Source: Marinicella meishanensis
GTDB lineage: Bacteria; Pseudomonadota; Gammaproteobacteria; Xanthomonadales; Marinicellaceae
Reading direction: 5' to 3'
Assembly: GCF_019931145.1 (NCBI RefSeq)
Contig: NZ_JAIOUV010000002.1
Span: forward strand, 186,001-250,000
DNA length: 64,000 nt
Positions 23,461-60,083 of the stretch are shown here, in pieces; positions within the stretch are counted from its first letter, which is position 1; every line of letters starts with the position of its first letter. Under the pieces are notes generated by a model, which saw only the letters and a list, made by a program, of their open reading frames with translations, had not been told where the DNA came from and did not search any database. The translations under genes and the position numbers were made by a program.

Positions 23461-24504
23461 TCAGTCAAAGCCGTTACGGAAAATCAAATCACTGGGTTCA
23501 CAGCTCACCAGCACATTGGTGATGTCCTGATTATTGGCTGTGCCCTGGCCCTGACTCACCATGCATGGCTGGGTTGGGTCACCGGTTTGGGTCAGCACGG
23601 ACACCTCGTAATCATCACCCACATTAAGTGCTTCGCTGAAGACAAAAGCACCATCTGAATTGACCAGCAAATCATCTCCCCCATTGTTTTGTAACACCAG
23701 GGCATTGCCCAGCTCCAGGCCAGATACCATACCTCCCACCATGGGCGTGGCCTGAAATGCCATGGCATGGTAGGCGTTGATTGTGGTGCCGGTGTTACTG
23801 AAGACCTCGGTGACTGGATTGAACGAGTATAAGGTACCAAAAAAAGCCATCCAACCCAAGGTCGGTGTGAGGATAATCATGGCTTGGGTTTCACCAGGAG
23901 AGCCCACTGGCGAACCAAGGGTTTCTACAAAAGTACCTGGATCAATGAATGATGTGCCGTTGTTATTTTGGTAGTAAATTTCACCGGTGTGGGGGTTGAA
24001 GGCCATGCCACCACCATAGGTTTGTATGGCGTGGTCAAAAATAAGAGTCTGGAATGCTGTCGCAGTGTCAATGAAGACAAATGAATAGTTAGTGGACTGG
24101 GTCCCGGTGGTTCCATACAGGTTGCCATCAGATGCAAAAGCGATGTCAATGATGTTACCGCAGTTGCCTATGTCGGTGATGGCAGCAGTGGTTTGATCCA
24201 TGATGCCCAGGCGCCGGCCACTGGCCCCACCAGGATTGGGCTGATACACCACGTACATCTCCTGCGTGATCGGATGTAATGACATACCAAAGATACCTTT
24301 TATGTCTCCAAAGTCTGAAGTGGCGGTCATCGAATCAACCACTGTGAAAGTCAAATTACTGGCATCAACCACATCGACATTGGTCGAATTATTTTCACCA
24401 GTCATGATCAAACGGTCTGCAGCCATTGCGGTGTTAATAGGGCCGAATGAAACCCAAACAATGACAGCCAATAAAGCGGAGAATACAGTGTTGTATTTTT
24501 TCAT
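23461..24504 (-). CDS. Secreted beta-propeller-like protein with F-x-x-x-F-D tail
   Basis: A 347-residue exported protein (signal peptide about residues 1-28). Repeats such as GMSLHPITQEMYVVYQP, DIAFASDGNLYGTTG and MAFNPHTGEIYYQ suggest a propeller. Residues 280-335 form a small repeat domain (AFVFSEALNVGDDYEV ... TQTGDPTQPCMV ... NVLVSC) seen in other bacterial secreted proteins. It ends in DLIFRNGFD, a tail nearly shared with the nuclease at 57000 and with two others. The function is unknown. It converges with the M23 gene. Confidence 0.75.
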   Translation of the reverse strand: MKKYNTVFSALLAVIVWVSFGPINTAMAADRLIMTGENNSTNVDVVDASNLTFTVVDSMTATSDFGDIKGIFGMSLHPITQEMYVVYQPNPGGASGRRLGIMDQTTAAITDIGNCGNIIDIAFASDGNLYGTTGTQSTNYSFVFIDTATAFQTLIFDHAIQTYGGGMAFNPHTGEIYYQNNNGTSFIDPGTFVETLGSPVGSPGETQAMIILTPTLGWMAFFGTLYSFNPVTEVFSNTGTTINAYHAMAFQATPMVGGMVSGLELGNALVLQNNGGDDLLVNSDGAFVFSEALNVGDDYEVSVLTQTGDPTQPCMVSQGQGTANNQDITNVLVSCEPSDLIFRNGFD

Positions 24505-40968: not shown

Positions 40969-41691
40969 TCACTCGAAATCGCTGGCGAACAACACGTCAC
41001 TGAGGACCCTGAGGATGCCGGTTTGGCTGGTGTGGGCTGGATTGGCGCAATGGTATGGGTACTCACCCGGCTCATAGAAACGCACATAGTTTTCCCATTG
41101 AAAACCGGTGGGATCGGTGTCAACCAATTGGCCATCACCTTCACAGCCGTCGGCGCAGACCAGCGAATCATCCAGGGTTCTGAAATTGTGCTCACCACCC
41201 TGATTTTGTAACAACACCACATCACCGGCCAAAACCGTCAAATCATCAGGCACAAAGCTGTTGTCCGGCTGGGCATTGATTTCATGCGTGGTCCCGCTGC
41301 TCGGCGTTTGCACCACCACGGTCCCCACCATGCCGAACTGGACATGGGGTTGGCATTCATAGGCCACGGTTTCGGGCACCCGAAAAGTCACTTCAGCGAC
41401 CCAATTGTTGGCCGCGGCATTGCCGTCACCACCCTCGGCATCGCAGCCATTGGCACAACGGAATTTCCCCACGGCGTAGACGTTGTGCGCGCCGGGGCCT
41501 TGGTTGATCCAACGCACCGTATCGCCGGCCTCAATCACGATGTTGGCCGGACTGAATGAGTTGTCTTGCACCGTCACCACATGTGTGCGGGCCAACAACG
41601 GCGCGGCGGTGGCCAACAGCAGGCCCAGCAATGTGGGCGCCAGTAAGCGGTTTTTGGCCAAAGGTGACGTGTTTTGTTGGGTGGTGTTCAT
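40969..41691 (-). CDS. Secreted double-cupredoxin protein with F-x-x-x-F-E type tail
   Basis: A 240-residue exported protein (signal peptide to about residue 35). Domain one (36-130): GAHNVYAV and YECQPHVQFGM give His, Cys, His, Met copper ligands. Domain two (138-230): GEHNFRTL and YHCANPAHTSQTG keep His, Cys and His but have Gln where Met is expected. It ends in DVLFASDFE, a variant of the tail at 23461 and 57000. Divergent from the DUF1800-DUF1501 pair. The likely role is periplasmic electron transfer or copper binding. Confidence 0.82.
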   Translation of the reverse strand: MNTTQQNTSPLAKNRLLAPTLLGLLLATAAPLLARTHVVTVQDNSFSPANIVIEAGDTVRWINQGPGAHNVYAVGKFRCANGCDAEGGDGNAAANNWVAEVTFRVPETVAYECQPHVQFGMVGTVVVQTPSSGTTHEINAQPDNSFVPDDLTVLAGDVVLLQNQGGEHNFRTLDDSLVCADGCEGDGQLVDTDPTGFQWENYVRFYEPGEYPYHCANPAHTSQTGILRVLSDVLFASDFE

Positions 41692-41848: not shown

Positions 41849-43648
41849 ATGAATATATTCGCCAAAAAGTACCACAAATCCGCCGCCTTGAACAAGGCGC
41901 CCAAATCTGAATCACCCGTCAAAGCCACCAAATCAAGCACATTGACCACCAAGTCTACGCCCAGTTTGTCAATCAAACCGGGGGACTTGGATGGCAGCAT
42001 CGCCACGCCCAACCTCACCCACCGGGTGCTGAGCAAAATGGCCTTTGGCCCCAGGGCCGCAGACATTGACCACATCAACAGCCTGCCAGGCGCCACCGAG
42101 ATGGACCGAATTTTGGCTTACATTGATGAGCAACTGGACCCAGCCACCATTGACGACAGCGCGGTGGACCTGATGCTGAACCAAGGATTTTCCACCTTGA
42201 ACAAAACCCAACAACAATTCTTCCAGGAACACGTTCACATCCCCGGTGGTGAAGACATTCCCTGGGACGTGCACATCCGCCCAGGTCGCGAAACAATTTA
42301 TGCCGCCTTCATCCGCGGCATCAACAGCAACCGACAGCTGTTTGAAATGATGGCCGACTTTTGGCACAACCACTTCAATGTGTACATCGAAGGGGACAAC
42401 ATCCAACCGATGTTTGTGCACTATGACCGCGACGTCATCCGACCCAATGCCTTGGGTAATTTTCGCGACATGTTATACGAGGTGACCCGCTCCAATGCCA
42501 TGTTGTCTTACCTTGGTAATGGCGTCAATGAACAATCGGCCCCGAATGAAAACTATGCCCGAGAACTGCTGGAACTGCACACCATCAGCGCCAAAAATTA
42601 TTTTGGCCACATGCCTTGGGATGATGTGCCGGTTGATGGCCAAGGTCGACGCACCGGCTACGTCGAAGCCGATGTGCTGGAGTTGTCCCGGGCTTTGACC
42701 GGGTGGTCTTTCTCCGGCGCCTCCTGGCAAGACTACCAATACCTGTATGACCCACCACCGATCAACCTCAACCTGGCCCCCACTGGCTTGTTCATGTTCC
42801 GCTCTGACTGGCATGACCAAGGTGTGAAACGGGTCATGGGAGTGGACTTCTTTTATGATTCCAATGACCCGGAAAAAGACGTCAATGACATCCTTGACAT
42901 GTTGGCCGAGCACCCCGCCACTGCCGAGTTCCTGGCCACCAAATTGTGTCGCCGTTTCATCGCCGATGAACCGCCGGCTGGGGTGGTGAGCCAAGTGGCC
43001 GATGCCCTGCAGCAAAATTGGCAAGCCAGCGATCAAATCAAAATCGCCATGGAAGTGTTGCTCAAATCGACTGAGTTTTTGAACACCTGGGGCGAAAAAA
43101 TCAAACGGCCCTTTGAACGCACCATGGCCGCCTTGCGCCAGATTGAATACAACTTCAGTTTCGACCCCACCAATGAATATGCCAGCTGGCACCACTGGGG
43201 TTTTCAGGACTCTGGCCAACCGCCCTTTGGTTGGACTTCGCCCAACGGCTACCCCGATGTCAAAGCCCATTGGCTGGGCGCCTCCAGCAACATGTCAACC
43301 TGGAAATTCATCCAATGGACCAGCCGCTTTCGCGATGGCAACAACGGTGATGTGCCGTTCAACAACATCCTGAACATCACCGCCAACGGCATCCCCAATG
43401 CCAGTGACCGCACCGCCAACAACCTGGTGAATTTCTGGTATGAACGGGCTTGTGGCTTTCCACCCGATCCGGGCGTGCAAAGCAAGCTGGCCGAGTTCAT
43501 GTCATACGATGACAACACCAACCCGGTCGTGGGTGACTTGAATGCGCCGATTGACATCTACAGCAATGACTGGCCAGGCTACAACAGCGAACGGTTGTTT
43601 GCGGTGGTGTCCACCATTTTTCTGACCGCAGAATTCAGTTACCGATAA
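41849..43648 (+). CDS. DUF1800 family protein
   Basis: A full-length 599-residue DUF1800 protein: HRVLSKMAFGPRAADI near 55, FWHNHFNVYIEGDNI near 170, NENYARELLELHTISA near 230, ELSRALTGWSF near 275, and a C-terminal block ending LTAEFSYR. The first 50 residues are Lys/Ser/Thr-rich without a clear signal peptide. It is followed after 10 bases by DUF1501, the standard partner. Biochemistry is unknown; the pair is thought to be exported or envelope-associated. Confidence 0.9.
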   Translation: MNIFAKKYHKSAALNKAPKSESPVKATKSSTLTTKSTPSLSIKPGDLDGSIATPNLTHRVLSKMAFGPRAADIDHINSLPGATEMDRILAYIDEQLDPATIDDSAVDLMLNQGFSTLNKTQQQFFQEHVHIPGGEDIPWDVHIRPGRETIYAAFIRGINSNRQLFEMMADFWHNHFNVYIEGDNIQPMFVHYDRDVIRPNALGNFRDMLYEVTRSNAMLSYLGNGVNEQSAPNENYARELLELHTISAKNYFGHMPWDDVPVDGQGRRTGYVEADVLELSRALTGWSFSGASWQDYQYLYDPPPINLNLAPTGLFMFRSDWHDQGVKRVMGVDFFYDSNDPEKDVNDILDMLAEHPATAEFLATKLCRRFIADEPPAGVVSQVADALQQNWQASDQIKIAMEVLLKSTEFLNTWGEKIKRPFERTMAALRQIEYNFSFDPTNEYASWHHWGFQDSGQPPFGWTSPNGYPDVKAHWLGASSNMSTWKFIQWTSRFRDGNNGDVPFNNILNITANGIPNASDRTANNLVNFWYERACGFPPDPGVQSKLAEFMSYDDNTNPVVGDLNAPIDIYSNDWPGYNSERLFAVVSTIFLTAEFSYR

Positions 43649-43658
43649 GGAGCAGACC

Positions 43659-44984
43659 ATGAAAAAAGTGAATCGAAGAAATTTCCTCAAAGGCAGCGGC
43701 CTGATCAGCGTGGCCGGCATGGGTGGCTTACAACTGGGTTTTGCCAACACCTTATTGCGTGGCGGCTCCAATGGCGGTGGCCGCGACTTGTTGGTCTATG
43801 TGTTCCTCAATGGCGGCATGGATGGCTTGAACATGGTGCCTCCGAGGTCTGGCCCTGACTACATCCAATACCGCGATGTGTTGCGTCCCAATTTACACAT
43901 TCCCAATTCCATGTCCTTGGCCCTGAATGGTCAAACGGCCTTCGGCATGCACCCTTCAGCCAGTGGTTTGGCCACCTTATTCAACCAAGACAAGATGGCC
44001 ATCATCCATGCCACGGGCCTGTTGGAGGCCAACCGCTCTCATTTTGAAGCCACCAAATACATGGAACTGGGCACCCAAGGCATCTCCGGCCTGGACACCG
44101 GCTGGTTAACCCGCTATTTCAACTCGTCATTGCACACCCCGGATGATGCGGTGATGCCTTCCATCGTGCCTTCTTACAACAACACCGACGCGGTGTTGGG
44201 TGACCCCACGGCGCTGGTCATGGCCAACCCCCAGGAATTCGCCTTGTCCGACGGGCATTGGGCCTGGGAAGAGTCGATGCAAAACATCCTGACCCAACTC
44301 AGCGCCAACCCCACCACCTTGGAACAACTGGTGGCCCACCAAACCCTGAATGCGTCGGCCATCATCCAAGCCATCGATTGGGACAACTATGTGCCCGGCA
44401 ATGGCGCGGTGTATCCAGAAAGCTTTTTGGGCGATCAATTGCGCACCGTGGCGCAGTTGTACAAGAACGACGTCAACCTGGAAGTGGCCTATGTGCCCAC
44501 CGGCGGCTGGGACACCCACGTGGGTCAAGGCACCGGCACCCAGGGTCAATTTGCCGATTTGACGGCCAATTTATCCGCTGGCTTGTATGCCCTGTACCAG
44601 GATTTGACCGCCACCCACAATGGCCGTTTCACCATCGTGGTGCACACCGAATTCGGTCGTCGGGCCTACCAAAACAGTGACAACAGCACCGACCATGGCT
44701 ATGGCAACCCGATGTTTGTGATTGGGGATGAGGTCAATGGTGGCTTCTATGGCCAATTCCCCGGCTTGGCCCCCAACCAATTGTTCGAGGGTGGTGACGT
44801 CGATGTGACGGTGGATTACCGCGATGTGGTCAGTGAGGTGTTGATCAAACGCCAACAAAATCGGTTCCTGGGTTACATCTTCCCGGACTACACCGATTAC
44901 ACCCCATTGGGCCTGATCAATGGCAGCGACTTACCGCCGATCTATGATTTGGATTACGATCCGATCTTTGCCAGCGGCTTTTGA
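43659..44984 (+). CDS. DUF1501 family protein, Tat-exported
   Basis: A 441-residue protein with a twin-arginine leader (N5-R6-R7-N-F-L-K). The core has the DUF1501 signatures LLVYVFLNGGMDGLNMVPP, FGMHPSASGLATLFNQ, ATGLLEANRSHFEATKYME, TGGWDTHVGQG and HTEFGRRAYQNSDNSTDHGYGNPMFVIG, consistent with an alkaline-phosphatase-like fold. It ends DPIFASGF, close to the tails of three other secreted proteins here. AAGGAG lies 7 bases ahead of the ATG. Partner of the preceding DUF1800 gene. Confidence 0.9.
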   Translation: MKKVNRRNFLKGSGLISVAGMGGLQLGFANTLLRGGSNGGGRDLLVYVFLNGGMDGLNMVPPRSGPDYIQYRDVLRPNLHIPNSMSLALNGQTAFGMHPSASGLATLFNQDKMAIIHATGLLEANRSHFEATKYMELGTQGISGLDTGWLTRYFNSSLHTPDDAVMPSIVPSYNNTDAVLGDPTALVMANPQEFALSDGHWAWEESMQNILTQLSANPTTLEQLVAHQTLNASAIIQAIDWDNYVPGNGAVYPESFLGDQLRTVAQLYKNDVNLEVAYVPTGGWDTHVGQGTGTQGQFADLTANLSAGLYALYQDLTATHNGRFTIVVHTEFGRRAYQNSDNSTDHGYGNPMFVIGDEVNGGFYGQFPGLAPNQLFEGGDVDVTVDYRDVVSEVLIKRQQNRFLGYIFPDYTDYTPLGLINGSDLPPIYDLDYDPIFASGF

Positions 44985-56999: not shown

Positions 57000-59900
57000 T
57001 CATTCGAAGCTGTTTTTGAATATCAGATCAGTATCAAAGTACACAAACAACACAAAACCGTCGTGGTCGGTTGAACGCAACGAGGTGCTGTCGTCGTCTT
57101 CGTTGTTGAGGTTGGCGTCAGCCTGTCCACGCACGTATTGCATTTCAACCAAATTCATCAAGCCCACGTCATTCATGATCGCGTTGTCCAACACCTGCGC
57201 CGAACCGCGGAACACAAAGGAATATTGCTGATCAGCAGTCAGGGTTTGCACCGCTTGGGTCAGTGGATCGGCGGCAAACAACGGCGCTTCCCACACCAGG
57301 TTGTCGTCTTCGACCGCTTCACCGGTGATTTGACCCACCACATCCACATAGCCGTCGGTGAATTCAAAGGCATTGAAATCACCAATCACATACAAGGATT
57401 TGTCGGGGTCTTCGGTGATGATGTCATTGATCATGACAGCCACCGAATTGGCTTGCTGCAAGCGCTTGCTGCGCACCCGCTCACCATCGGTTGGATCATC
57501 GATGCCGCCGCGTGAGCGCAGGTGTACCACCAACACATTCAAGGACAACGAATCCTGACTCAAGGCCACATCGCCCTCCAAACGCAAGGGCGGTCGGTCA
57601 TGCAACAAGGAACCATCAAAGCTGTTGATTTCAGCCGCACCCAACTGGGTGATGGTGACGTTGCTCAACAAAGCGGTTTGATACAGGTAGGCCACATCAA
57701 TGCCGCCTTGGTCATTGCCTTCCACCAGGGCCGCGGTGTAAGCGGGCCCGCCGGCGGTGGTGATGGCGGTGATCAAATCATTCAGCACATCGGTGTTTTC
57801 AATTTCTTGCAAACCGATGATCACAGGCGACTTCATGTCATTGACAAAATAGTTACCCAATTTTTGCAAGCGGGCGGCATAGACGGCCGGGTCTTCGACT
57901 TGGCCATCGTCCTCTGGACCCGGGTCATCGACGTCGTTGAACAAGCGGAACAAATTGGCCGAAGCAATGGTCACTTCATCGGTCACCGCATCACGCACCG
58001 CTGCCGGGATCACGTTTTCGGTCAACACCGTGACGCTGGAGGGCCAAATCTCATATTCGCCAAAGTCAAAACCAAAAACTCCAGTCACAGCAATTTCAGA
58101 ACCCGCAGGGTAGCTGTTGGCGGCCAAATCCAAGCCCAAGGCATCCACGTCCATTTCCAGCAACTCGGGGTTGCCATCAAACACCGGCAAACCGGGTAAG
58201 CCAGGGAATTCAATGCCAGGCTCACGGAAGGCGCGGGCGCTGCCGGCACGCACCCATTGGTCATCGCGGTTGGCGCCAAAGAAAGCCACCGAGGCGGCAC
58301 TGACATAGCCTTGGGGCATGTCAAAATGCATGCCTTCAAAACACTCATAGGCCAAGGCTTCAGCCACACACGGGAACACCGTGGGATCACCTGAAGGGAA
58401 ACTGTCATCCAACACAATGGCAGTTGGCAATGGGTTGCCTGAACTGTCGATGTTCAGCACATAGGTGCCTGGGTTGGTGAATTCAGTAAGTTCAAAAAAT
58501 TCAATGACATCACCAGTCAGGTCCACCTGATCACCCACCAACACCGGAACCGGAGAACCGGTGAAGACAAAGATGCCATTGGAAGTCTGCGCATCGGCAT
58601 CGTCGCGGTTGTCCGGGGTTTGCATGTAAAATCCGTTGGTGTCCACCGCAGTGACGATGTTGTCCAAGGTGGTCACCCGCTGACCATCAAAAGGAGAAAC
58701 CAAACCAGCCCCTTGAATCTCATAAATTTCCACTACCGGGAAACCCACGGTGAAAGACACGTTGACGTTGGCCGCCATGTTATCTGGCGTGCCGTCGTTG
58801 TCGGTGACTTCAGCTGCCACCACGGTCAAATCACAAGTTTCACTGTCCACCAAATCGCTGTCTGGGTTGATCGTCACCACCGTTTGGTCGTTGACCGGCA
58901 GTCCGGTGAACGTGACCGCACCTGAGTCAGAACACAGCAAGGTAATGGCACTGGCTGTGGCATCGATTGCTTCGGAAAAATTGATCACCAAGTCATTTGA
59001 ATTGACAAAACCGACCGAACCATCGGCCGGATCGGTCGAAGTCACCGTGGGTGCCAGATCATCAATCACCGTGAAACTGAACACGTAGTCAGCCGCCATC
59101 GGATCGATGGTGCCGTCCAAGTCGGTGACACTGGCATCATCCACCGTCACCGTACAGGTTTCGGCGTTGTCAAAATCGGCCGCATCGATGTCCAGGTTGG
59201 TGACGTTGCTGGTTAAAGATGCCGGGAAGTTTTGCATGCCACTGCTGGTGCAATCGATGTTGACCGCATTGGCAGCGATGTCGACAGCCTCACTGAAGTT
59301 GATCAACACATTGCTGGTGCGTGCCACATCCACCGCCGCATCGACAGGGGTGGTTGAGGTCACTTCCGGGGCGTTGTCCACGCCGGTGAGGTCACCGGTA
59401 AGAGTCAGATCATCAAAGGCGAATTCCTCGCTGCCAGCATCTACACTGACCGAGATCAATAAATCCAAAGTGCTGCCGGTTCCGGGAATACTGAACCCAT
59501 AGGAAGCCATGGCAGGCACCACTTGGGTCAAGGGAACATCGGCTTCACCGTCGCAGTCGGCGTCCAAGCCAAATGGCTCGTTAAAATCATCGTTGTTGGC
59601 ATTGAAATACCCAAAACAAACACCTGTAGTGTAAGGATCGGCGCCTGCTCCGTCGATGCGGTATTCCACCCGCACAAAGTCAGCAGCATCATAGTTGCTG
59701 GCTCCAGGACCCAATGCATTTCCAGCACCGAACAACCCAGTGAAGGCCAAGTTCTCATAACCACTGATGTCGATGTCAATGAATTCCAAGGTTTGGGGAG
59801 TCAAACCATTGCCGCCATTGTCGTTGACATCTTCAGCCGCCCAAAAGAAGCTGCCATCAAAGCCACTGTAAGCAGCCGTCACATTGGATATGTCAGAACC

Positions 59901-60083
59901 ATCGGTGCGGTTCCAGTGGTCACTGGTGCCGTCGTTAAAAGGCTGTGATGCGGTGTAGCGCCCATCTCCAGTACCGACATTACCATCGGTTTCAAAACTT
60001 TCCACCAGGATATCAACCGCTTGTGCCGATCCTGCCATGCCCGTTGCCATCAACGCAGCACTAATCATTGTCTTCAATTTCAT
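57000..60083 (-). CDS. ExeM/NucH-type extracellular nuclease with F-x-x-x-F-E tail
   Basis: A 1027-residue secreted protein. A signal peptide covers about 1-22; a beta domain covers 25-235; two SbsA-type Ig-like repeats span about 240-345 and 346-450 (VTSTTPVDAAVDVARTS, VTSTDPADGSVGFVNS); a beta region follows at 455-715. The endonuclease/exonuclease/phosphatase domain runs from about 730: GLQEIEN near 757, GIDVAYLY, HDRPPL, VVHLRSRGG, GDFNAFE near 901 and RSTDHDGFV near 1002. It ends DLIFKNSFE. Likely a secreted DNase for nutrient or biofilm DNA. Confidence 0.9.
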   Translation of the reverse strand: MKLKTMISAALMATGMAGSAQAVDILVESFETDGNVGTGDGRYTASQPFNDGTSDHWNRTDGSDISNVTAAYSGFDGSFFWAAEDVNDNGGNGLTPQTLEFIDIDISGYENLAFTGLFGAGNALGPGASNYDAADFVRVEYRIDGAGADPYTTGVCFGYFNANNDDFNEPFGLDADCDGEADVPLTQVVPAMASYGFSIPGTGSTLDLLISVSVDAGSEEFAFDDLTLTGDLTGVDNAPEVTSTTPVDAAVDVARTSNVLINFSEAVDIAANAVNIDCTSSGMQNFPASLTSNVTNLDIDAADFDNAETCTVTVDDASVTDLDGTIDPMAADYVFSFTVIDDLAPTVTSTDPADGSVGFVNSNDLVINFSEAIDATASAITLLCSDSGAVTFTGLPVNDQTVVTINPDSDLVDSETCDLTVVAAEVTDNDGTPDNMAANVNVSFTVGFPVVEIYEIQGAGLVSPFDGQRVTTLDNIVTAVDTNGFYMQTPDNRDDADAQTSNGIFVFTGSPVPVLVGDQVDLTGDVIEFFELTEFTNPGTYVLNIDSSGNPLPTAIVLDDSFPSGDPTVFPCVAEALAYECFEGMHFDMPQGYVSAASVAFFGANRDDQWVRAGSARAFREPGIEFPGLPGLPVFDGNPELLEMDVDALGLDLAANSYPAGSEIAVTGVFGFDFGEYEIWPSSVTVLTENVIPAAVRDAVTDEVTIASANLFRLFNDVDDPGPEDDGQVEDPAVYAARLQKLGNYFVNDMKSPVIIGLQEIENTDVLNDLITAITTAGGPAYTAALVEGNDQGGIDVAYLYQTALLSNVTITQLGAAEINSFDGSLLHDRPPLRLEGDVALSQDSLSLNVLVVHLRSRGGIDDPTDGERVRSKRLQQANSVAVMINDIITEDPDKSLYVIGDFNAFEFTDGYVDVVGQITGEAVEDDNLVWEAPLFAADPLTQAVQTLTADQQYSFVFRGSAQVLDNAIMNDVGLMNLVEMQYVRGQADANLNNEDDDSTSLRSTDHDGFVLFVYFDTDLIFKNSFE

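Follow-up and report, generated by a model that had tools for sequence, protein, structure and literature searches.

What does it mean when proteins that have little else in common end in the same few residues? The question is raised by the window, the stretch of 64,000 nucleotides of DNA analysed here, in which the initial annotation had noticed that four exported proteins end in the pattern D-x-[IL]-F-x-x-x-F-[DE] and had read this tail as a sorting, secretion or surface-attachment signal.

The shared tail in the window and in its genome

Translation returned the annotated C-termini for all four proteins. Three are encoded on the minus strand: an exported nuclease (57000-60083) that ends in ...DTDLIFKNSFE, with the tag DLIFKNSFE at 57003-57029; an exported protein (23461-24504) that ends in ...SDLIFRNGFD, with the tag DLIFRNGFD at 23464-23490, also recovered in the genome scan (G000:C8:209461-209481); and an exported double cupredoxin (40969-41691) that ends in ...SDVLFASDFE, with the tag DVLFASDFE at 40972-40998. 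The C-terminus of the DUF1501 protein on the plus strand (43659-44984) reads ...DYDPIFASGF; the tail is present as the variant DPIFASGF (44958-44981), but the final acidic residue is missing, so that three of the four proteins fit the pattern and the fourth is one residue short. As first written, the pattern was slightly over-strict, since the last residue may be absent and short extensions exist.

The nuclease combines a signal peptide with Big_5 repeats and an Exo_endo_phos_3 domain, and partially matches NF033681 (ExeM/NucH) under the cut-off. Signal peptides are also predicted for the cupredoxin, where Copper-bind matches two stretches, and for the product of 23461-24504; the name 'propeller' for the latter is the initial annotation's own label, no Pfam family having been found above cut-off. 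The DUF1501 protein has a Tat-type signal (TIGR01409, barely above cut-off). The product of the gene that precedes it (41849-43648) looks by eye like a DUF1800-type protein, which we take to be its partner; because this product has neither a tag nor, by eye, a signal peptide, the two may be a pair travelling with one tag. A single-sequence AlphaFold model of the cupredoxin was uninformative (mean pLDDT 33.6).

The motif F-x-x-x-F-[DE]-stop matches the window DNA five times, against 0.56 expected, and none of 100 shuffles reached five. The tails of the cupredoxin, the nuclease and the 23461 protein account for three of these matches; a fourth has TGG in place of the stop, and the fifth closes a frame of 22 residues. 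The genome as a whole (3.99 Mb in 15 contigs) has 25 places that match F-x-x-G-F-[DE]-stop, compared with 2 for a reversed-pattern control. Eighteen of the 25 close open reading frames (ORFs) of more than 130 amino acids and two (L006, L022) close doubtful short ones, while at five (L009, L011, L012, L015, L017) no ORF of more than 40 amino acids ends. The tagged proteins are of diverse kinds: they include ThuA, an M6-like peptidase, an M36-related protein, FG-GAP repeats, beta helices, the cupredoxin, the nuclease and DUF1501, several of these assignments resting on matches under the family cut-off. The shared tail on the window proteins is thus confirmed as genuine, and it is commoner than first noted.

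The consensus is about [D]-[LVI]-[IL]-F-x-[DN]-G-F-[ED], nine residues of the kind DLIFADGFE. Among 81 distinct tails from fetched loci, D occupies position -9 in 52, I, L or V position -7 in 76, D or N position -4 in 65 and G position -3 in 71, the figures for -3 and -7 being partly set by the fetching searches; F at -6 and -2 and D/E at -1 were set by the final filter. Thirty loci taken from a position-free search gave 27 readable sites, nine of which end exactly at the motif, with 1-6 further residues in twelve and 10 or more in six. The absence of a membrane helix or basic end, claimed from the window proteins, extended to all tails read. Tripartite CTERM signals have a helix and a basic cluster after the motif; here the motif is terminal or, mostly, has a few residues added. 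The best NCBIfam and Pfam matches of 10 tagged proteins all stop short of the tail. One protein (L333, G012:C1:23581-26600) ends in two tandem tags, ...AIFLDGFE-GDVIFKNGYD.

A suffix on exported proteins

The tail could be the ordinary last strand of different domains, or a chance likeness, and beta proteins commonly have short hydrophobic C-termini. We compared ExeM-type nucleases in 44 genomes, mainly of tag-poor families, with 26 of 30 loci readable. The tag was found in none of the 14 relatives from genomes without a type II secretion system (T2SS) of the PDZ type, and in five of the 12 from genomes that have one; among these five, one carries a divergent RFE form and two have short extensions, and in another of the 12 a C-terminal hydrophobic stretch replaces the tag. 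Several of the 14 nucleases from genomes without this T2SS stop right at the catalytic domain, in SSDHDPLLLGF-like ends, and in the window nuclease DTDLIFKNSFE comes after a domain end of this kind. Similarly, a choice-of-anchor Q model stops at residue 493 of 503, directly ahead of a tail. As judged from protein ends, the tag was shown to behave as a suffix after the catalytic domain in the nuclease family compared. The counts against controls already refute a last strand or chance likeness, both in the window's genome and over 150 genomes of the order discussed below, in which F-x-[DN]-G-F-E at any position has 2627 matches compared with 34 for the control; with the suffix behaviour of the nucleases and the restriction to one order in the sample, we consider its probability negligible.

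The DUF1501 family was also examined. Of 30 loci, 28 gave an ORF (a few perhaps in the wrong frame), with the tag in three (L214, L215, L221), a weak form in one (L217) and none in most others. As most of its members are untagged, this family does not discriminate.

The tag is enriched among exported proteins. In 21 stretches of the window's own genome (19 around tag matches, the window and the T2SS region), rather than the whole proteome, a signal peptide on a soluble product was predicted for 20 of 24 tag genes, versus 71 of 255 other genes (p = 1.2e-7). The signal-peptide predictor was home-made in all its variants; a looser one gave 22/24 versus 129/255 and a stricter one 11/24 versus 50/255 (p = 0.007). 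Applied to three other genomes, in which gene calling was poor, the stricter variant gave 4/9 versus 11/69, 1/7 versus 6/145 and 1/2 versus 0/63, always in the same direction and not always significantly. A Tat-type start can be seen by eye in one of the four tag genes missed by the main predictor. The properties of a type II substrate, a Sec or Tat signal on a soluble protein, were found in 20 of the 24 tag genes of the own-genome sample. These sequence comparisons support the reading of the tail as a sorting, secretion or surface-attachment signal, which neither of the two attempts at refutation, by export enrichment and by the last-strand comparison, overturned.

Distribution over one order and the PDZ-type T2SS

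A strict DNA pattern run over a species collection matched 22 stretches, whose names are Lysobacterales, Xanthomonadales or Lysobacteraceae, Dokdonella, Rudaea, Pseudofulvimonas, Wenzhouxiangella and a Rhodanobacteraceae bacterium, together with a few metagenome-assembled genomes labelled just Gammaproteobacteria or Proteobacteria. By the named matches, the order that bears the tag is Lysobacterales. Among 299 genomes from the phylum, none of the 292 outside the order had more than 4 matches, a number equalled by the control in some. The exact tail is unevenly spread over the 150 genomes sampled from the order: in five of 11 sampled families it occurs 7-63 times in nearly every genome (7-63 in f3, f4, f5 and f11; 9-58 in f1, the family of the window, G018 excepted), and in most of f2, f8, f9 and f12 there are none or few, with exceptions. 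The position-free motif revealed five tagged genera in f9, with g12 and g208 remaining untagged; F-x-x-G-F-E-x-G, considered as a missing f9 tag, was rejected, with 0-5 matches per f9 genome. Within the samples searched, the tag was shown to be confined to one order.

A GspD search found some match in 149 of the 150 genomes, above cut-off in 141. The only genome without a match, G018, is the lone tag-less member of f1. Many tag-bearing genomes have, among the matches listed, a second GspD, short and high-scoring, in an operon of GspC-GspD-GspE, mostly with GspF. The T2SSC domain is present in all five of the GspC proteins scanned, and a PDZ domain scores above the Pfam cut-off in three and just under it in two; the GspC profile matches the PDZ parts of the OutC, PulC and (as we presume the third structure to be named) EpsC structures. 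With this profile, the protein was detected in 76 of the 150 genomes at E 1e-39 or better, one match (G413) being partial. G375 and G445, two tag-less genomes of f2, gave weaker matches that cover most of the profile (84.7 and 66.2 bits) and were scored as GspC-absent; below them are only PDZ fragments. Taking at least five motifs as tag-bearing, 58 genomes have both tags and GspC, 5 tags only, 18 GspC only and 69 neither, and PDZ-type GspC is thus found in 58 of 63 tag-bearing genomes. The table becomes 58, 5, 20 and 67 if G375 and G445 are taken as present, and 51, 3, 25 and 71 by the earlier exact-tail counts. At the level of genera, with tags counted from either the exact-tail or the position-free search, tag and GspC agree in 57 of 63 (56 with G375 and G445 as present); permutation of GspC labels among genera within families, which controls for family and not for the tree inside families, reaches 57 in 4 of 100,000 cases. 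G018 shows just PDZ fragments in the GspC search; in f2, the sole tag-bearing genome of 28, G395, has GspC and the remaining 27 fall short of it; in f12, GspC is found in the 4 tag-bearing genomes and in none of the 23 others. The presence or absence of the tag therefore correlates with that of the PDZ-type T2SS.

The correlation has exceptions on both sides. GspC is kept with only 0-3 motifs in g12 of f9 (15 genomes), g208 (one genome) and G388; G020 is under the motif cut-off, yet has 9 exact tails. Tags occur without a detected GspC in G014, G367, G436, G376 and G400. In the first three, which are 94% (in 460 contigs), 90% and 90% complete, the missing GspC may be an assembly gap, an explanation that does not serve for G376 (97%) and G400 (98%). 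Alternatively, the tag may have some other reader, such as a receptor, a chaperone or an enzyme that processes it, whose losses coincided with those of the PDZ-type T2SS; the T2SS would then be a bystander. The near absence of tags from g12 despite its GspC, the tag-bearing f8 genomes without GspC and the fact that the profiles run across the order were those of GspD, GspC and rhombosortase alone (in the window's genome, GspC, D, E and F were examined) would all fit such a reader. Since 57 of 63 genera agree, the co-occurrence recurs inside several families, and the compartment and type of cargo are right for a T2SS, we regard it as rather unlikely. A further point against the T2SS link is that bacteria outside the order have a PDZ-type GspC as well (OutC, PulC, EpsC), and the genomes sampled there have no excess of tags.

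Retention at the outer membrane or surface after type II secretion, with the tag bound by a surface receptor in the way that GlyGly-CTERM proteins are retained in other genera, would produce the T2SS correlation as well. Some tagged proteins do partly match, below cut-off, NCBIfam families named for MYXO-CTERM or GlyGly-CTERM (M36 families, SVAGG). The tails read are, on the other hand, free of a membrane helix or basic end, and no receptor candidate was found, which makes retention unlikely in our view; the distribution of the tag points to type II secretion over surface attachment. A third proposal starts from the PDZ domain itself, as solved HtrA-type proteases match the GspC profile in their PDZ part and hydrophobic C-terminal peptides are classic ligands of PDZ domains of the DegP, DegS or tail-specific protease type. 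The tail would then be a periplasmic degradation or quality-control signal for such a protease. Matches that are short and confined to PDZ, lying in presumably HtrA-type frames of about 450-550 amino acids, also occur in tag-less genomes, so that HtrA-type proteins do not track the tag, and it would be odd for dozens of exported proteins to carry a suffix that leads to their destruction. We consider this proposal very improbable.

The genes for GspC, D, E and F stand side by side in the window's genome (L222), with GspD, E and F above their NCBIfam cut-offs; GspC scores 88.6 against a cut-off of 101.6 in NCBIfam, and lies above the Pfam cut-offs for T2SSC and PDZ. Downstream of this operon is the gene for a tagged, exported protein of 595 amino acids without a Pfam family (L222:15309-17093); four genes intervene (by eye: ABC-type ATPase, membrane protein, response regulator, DNA glycosylase). 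The proteins at the same position in G013 and G001 end in variants of the tag. Of 21 T2SS stretches, 5 have a tagged gene close to the operon, a number that we do not count as evidence. A dedicated machine encoded beside tag genes was also sought: at the tag loci of five genomes, three clusters recurred in at least 3 genomes; inspection by eye suggests a sigma-factor-like family, response regulators and Ser/Thr kinases. As these are of usually multi-copy types, no dedicated neighbour machine was found.

The GspC PDZ domains of f8 and f9 are without a short hairpin seen in other families (L156 versus L153, for example), and in the 72 of 76 GspC proteins that could be read, f8 and f9 have a shorter stretch ahead of the presumed carboxylate loop than other families. 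Exact tails are mostly fewer in short-hairpin genomes; we make no claim on hairpin length because the split follows family and position-free counts are high in several of these genomes. The genus g12 of f9 (L156 and L159, for example) stands out as having retained a PDZ-type T2SS in 15 genomes almost without tags.

A proposed address tag and its known counterparts

Because the ending occurs mostly in genomes that have this one type II machine, it is probably an address tag for it: a lineage-specific, linear signal that would commit exported proteins to the PDZ-type T2SS, perhaps by binding to the PDZ domain of GspC. The tag would form a suffix on many soluble proteins of unrelated kinds, which Sec or Tat would carry over the inner membrane. 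In the periplasm, the folded protein would display its hydrophobic C-terminal peptide, and this peptide would commit it to the GspC-D-E-F system with the C-terminal PDZ domain on its GspC; transport across the outer membrane would then be the work of that T2SS. We infer that tagged proteins are secreted by the T2SS and, with less confidence, that the GspC PDZ domain is the receptor of the tag; of these two steps, secretion by the T2SS has the stronger support and the receptor is a guess.

Class IV PDZ ligands have X-aromatic-[D/E] at the C-terminus, according to the part of the source consulted (PMC3504512), and the exact tags, which by construction of that search end in G-F-[E/D], fit this consensus. 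In Vibrio, the PDZ domain of GspC is described as fully required for just one known substrate, through its Ig fold (PMC12369372, in the passage cited). This requirement, together with the class IV fit of the tag, is the reason why we propose for the order a PDZ-type T2SS that reads a linear tag. Whether it would be the first linear, transferable secretion tag of a T2SS, a nine-residue C-terminal peptide read by the GspC PDZ domain as a class IV ligand, is a more tentative proposal, to which we give somewhat less than an even chance. The 18 of 27 position-free motif sites with residues beyond the motif differ from a class IV ligand with its free C-terminus, and weaken a strict PDZ-carboxylate mechanism; the short extensions after many tags argue against a free carboxylate being strictly required. 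Binding is inferred here, and the likeness to class IV ligands is confined to the exact tags.

How a T2SS recognizes its cargo is an open question, which the tag makes directly testable. If the proposal is true, the T2SS of this order uses a peptide code to choose much of its cargo, secretomes across much of a bacterial order become readable from sequence, and a small export tag is available for biotechnology. Sorting suffixes as such are already known; a linear T2SS code would go further. The C-terminal domain of type IX secretion substrates is likewise a C-terminal secretion signal without a tripartite build, but those signals are whole domains, in Bacteroidota, and the tag has nine residues.

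For the T2SS itself, linear signals are stated to have been excluded in the relevant passage of PMC9251779, and no description of the tag, or of linear T2SS tails, was found in the open-licence literature by title and abstract start. GspC is reported to help select substrates, VesB with EpsC (PMC12369372) and PelI and Pel3 with GspC and GspD (PMC7949064), and a nine-residue loop of PelI serves as a specific signal (PMC7949064, as far as the cited sections go). In these PDZ-linked substrates the signals lie inside folded domains (the VesB Ig fold, the PelI and Pel3 loops), in contrast to a terminal tag; the PDZ domain is required by a subset of them, and the passages cited describe no tag common to unrelated proteins. 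PEP-CTERM/exosortase, LPXTG/sortase and MYXO-CTERM resemble the tag as many-to-one sorting suffixes of patchy distribution (PMC3237569, in part), but are tripartite with a membrane helix, whereas the tag is soluble.

GlyGly-CTERM/rhombosortase (TIGR03501, TIGR03902) likewise has a C-terminal suffix, found on many exported proteins of unrelated kinds, including nucleases and proteases (PMC3237569, in the section cited); VesB of Vibrio is described as both a GlyGly-CTERM protein and a T2SS substrate (PMC12369372, likewise). GlyGly-CTERM differs from the tag in its membrane helix and basic end, and the tag does not co-occur with rhombosortase. Tried as a partner of the tag over the 150 genomes, rhombosortase was above cut-off in 10, and tags are present in 2 of these 10 carriers compared with 61 of the 140 others. 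The other eight carriers (G368, G044, G362, G372, G411, G408, G420 and G370) have fewer than 5 motifs, as if the tag and rhombosortase systems tended to mutual exclusion.
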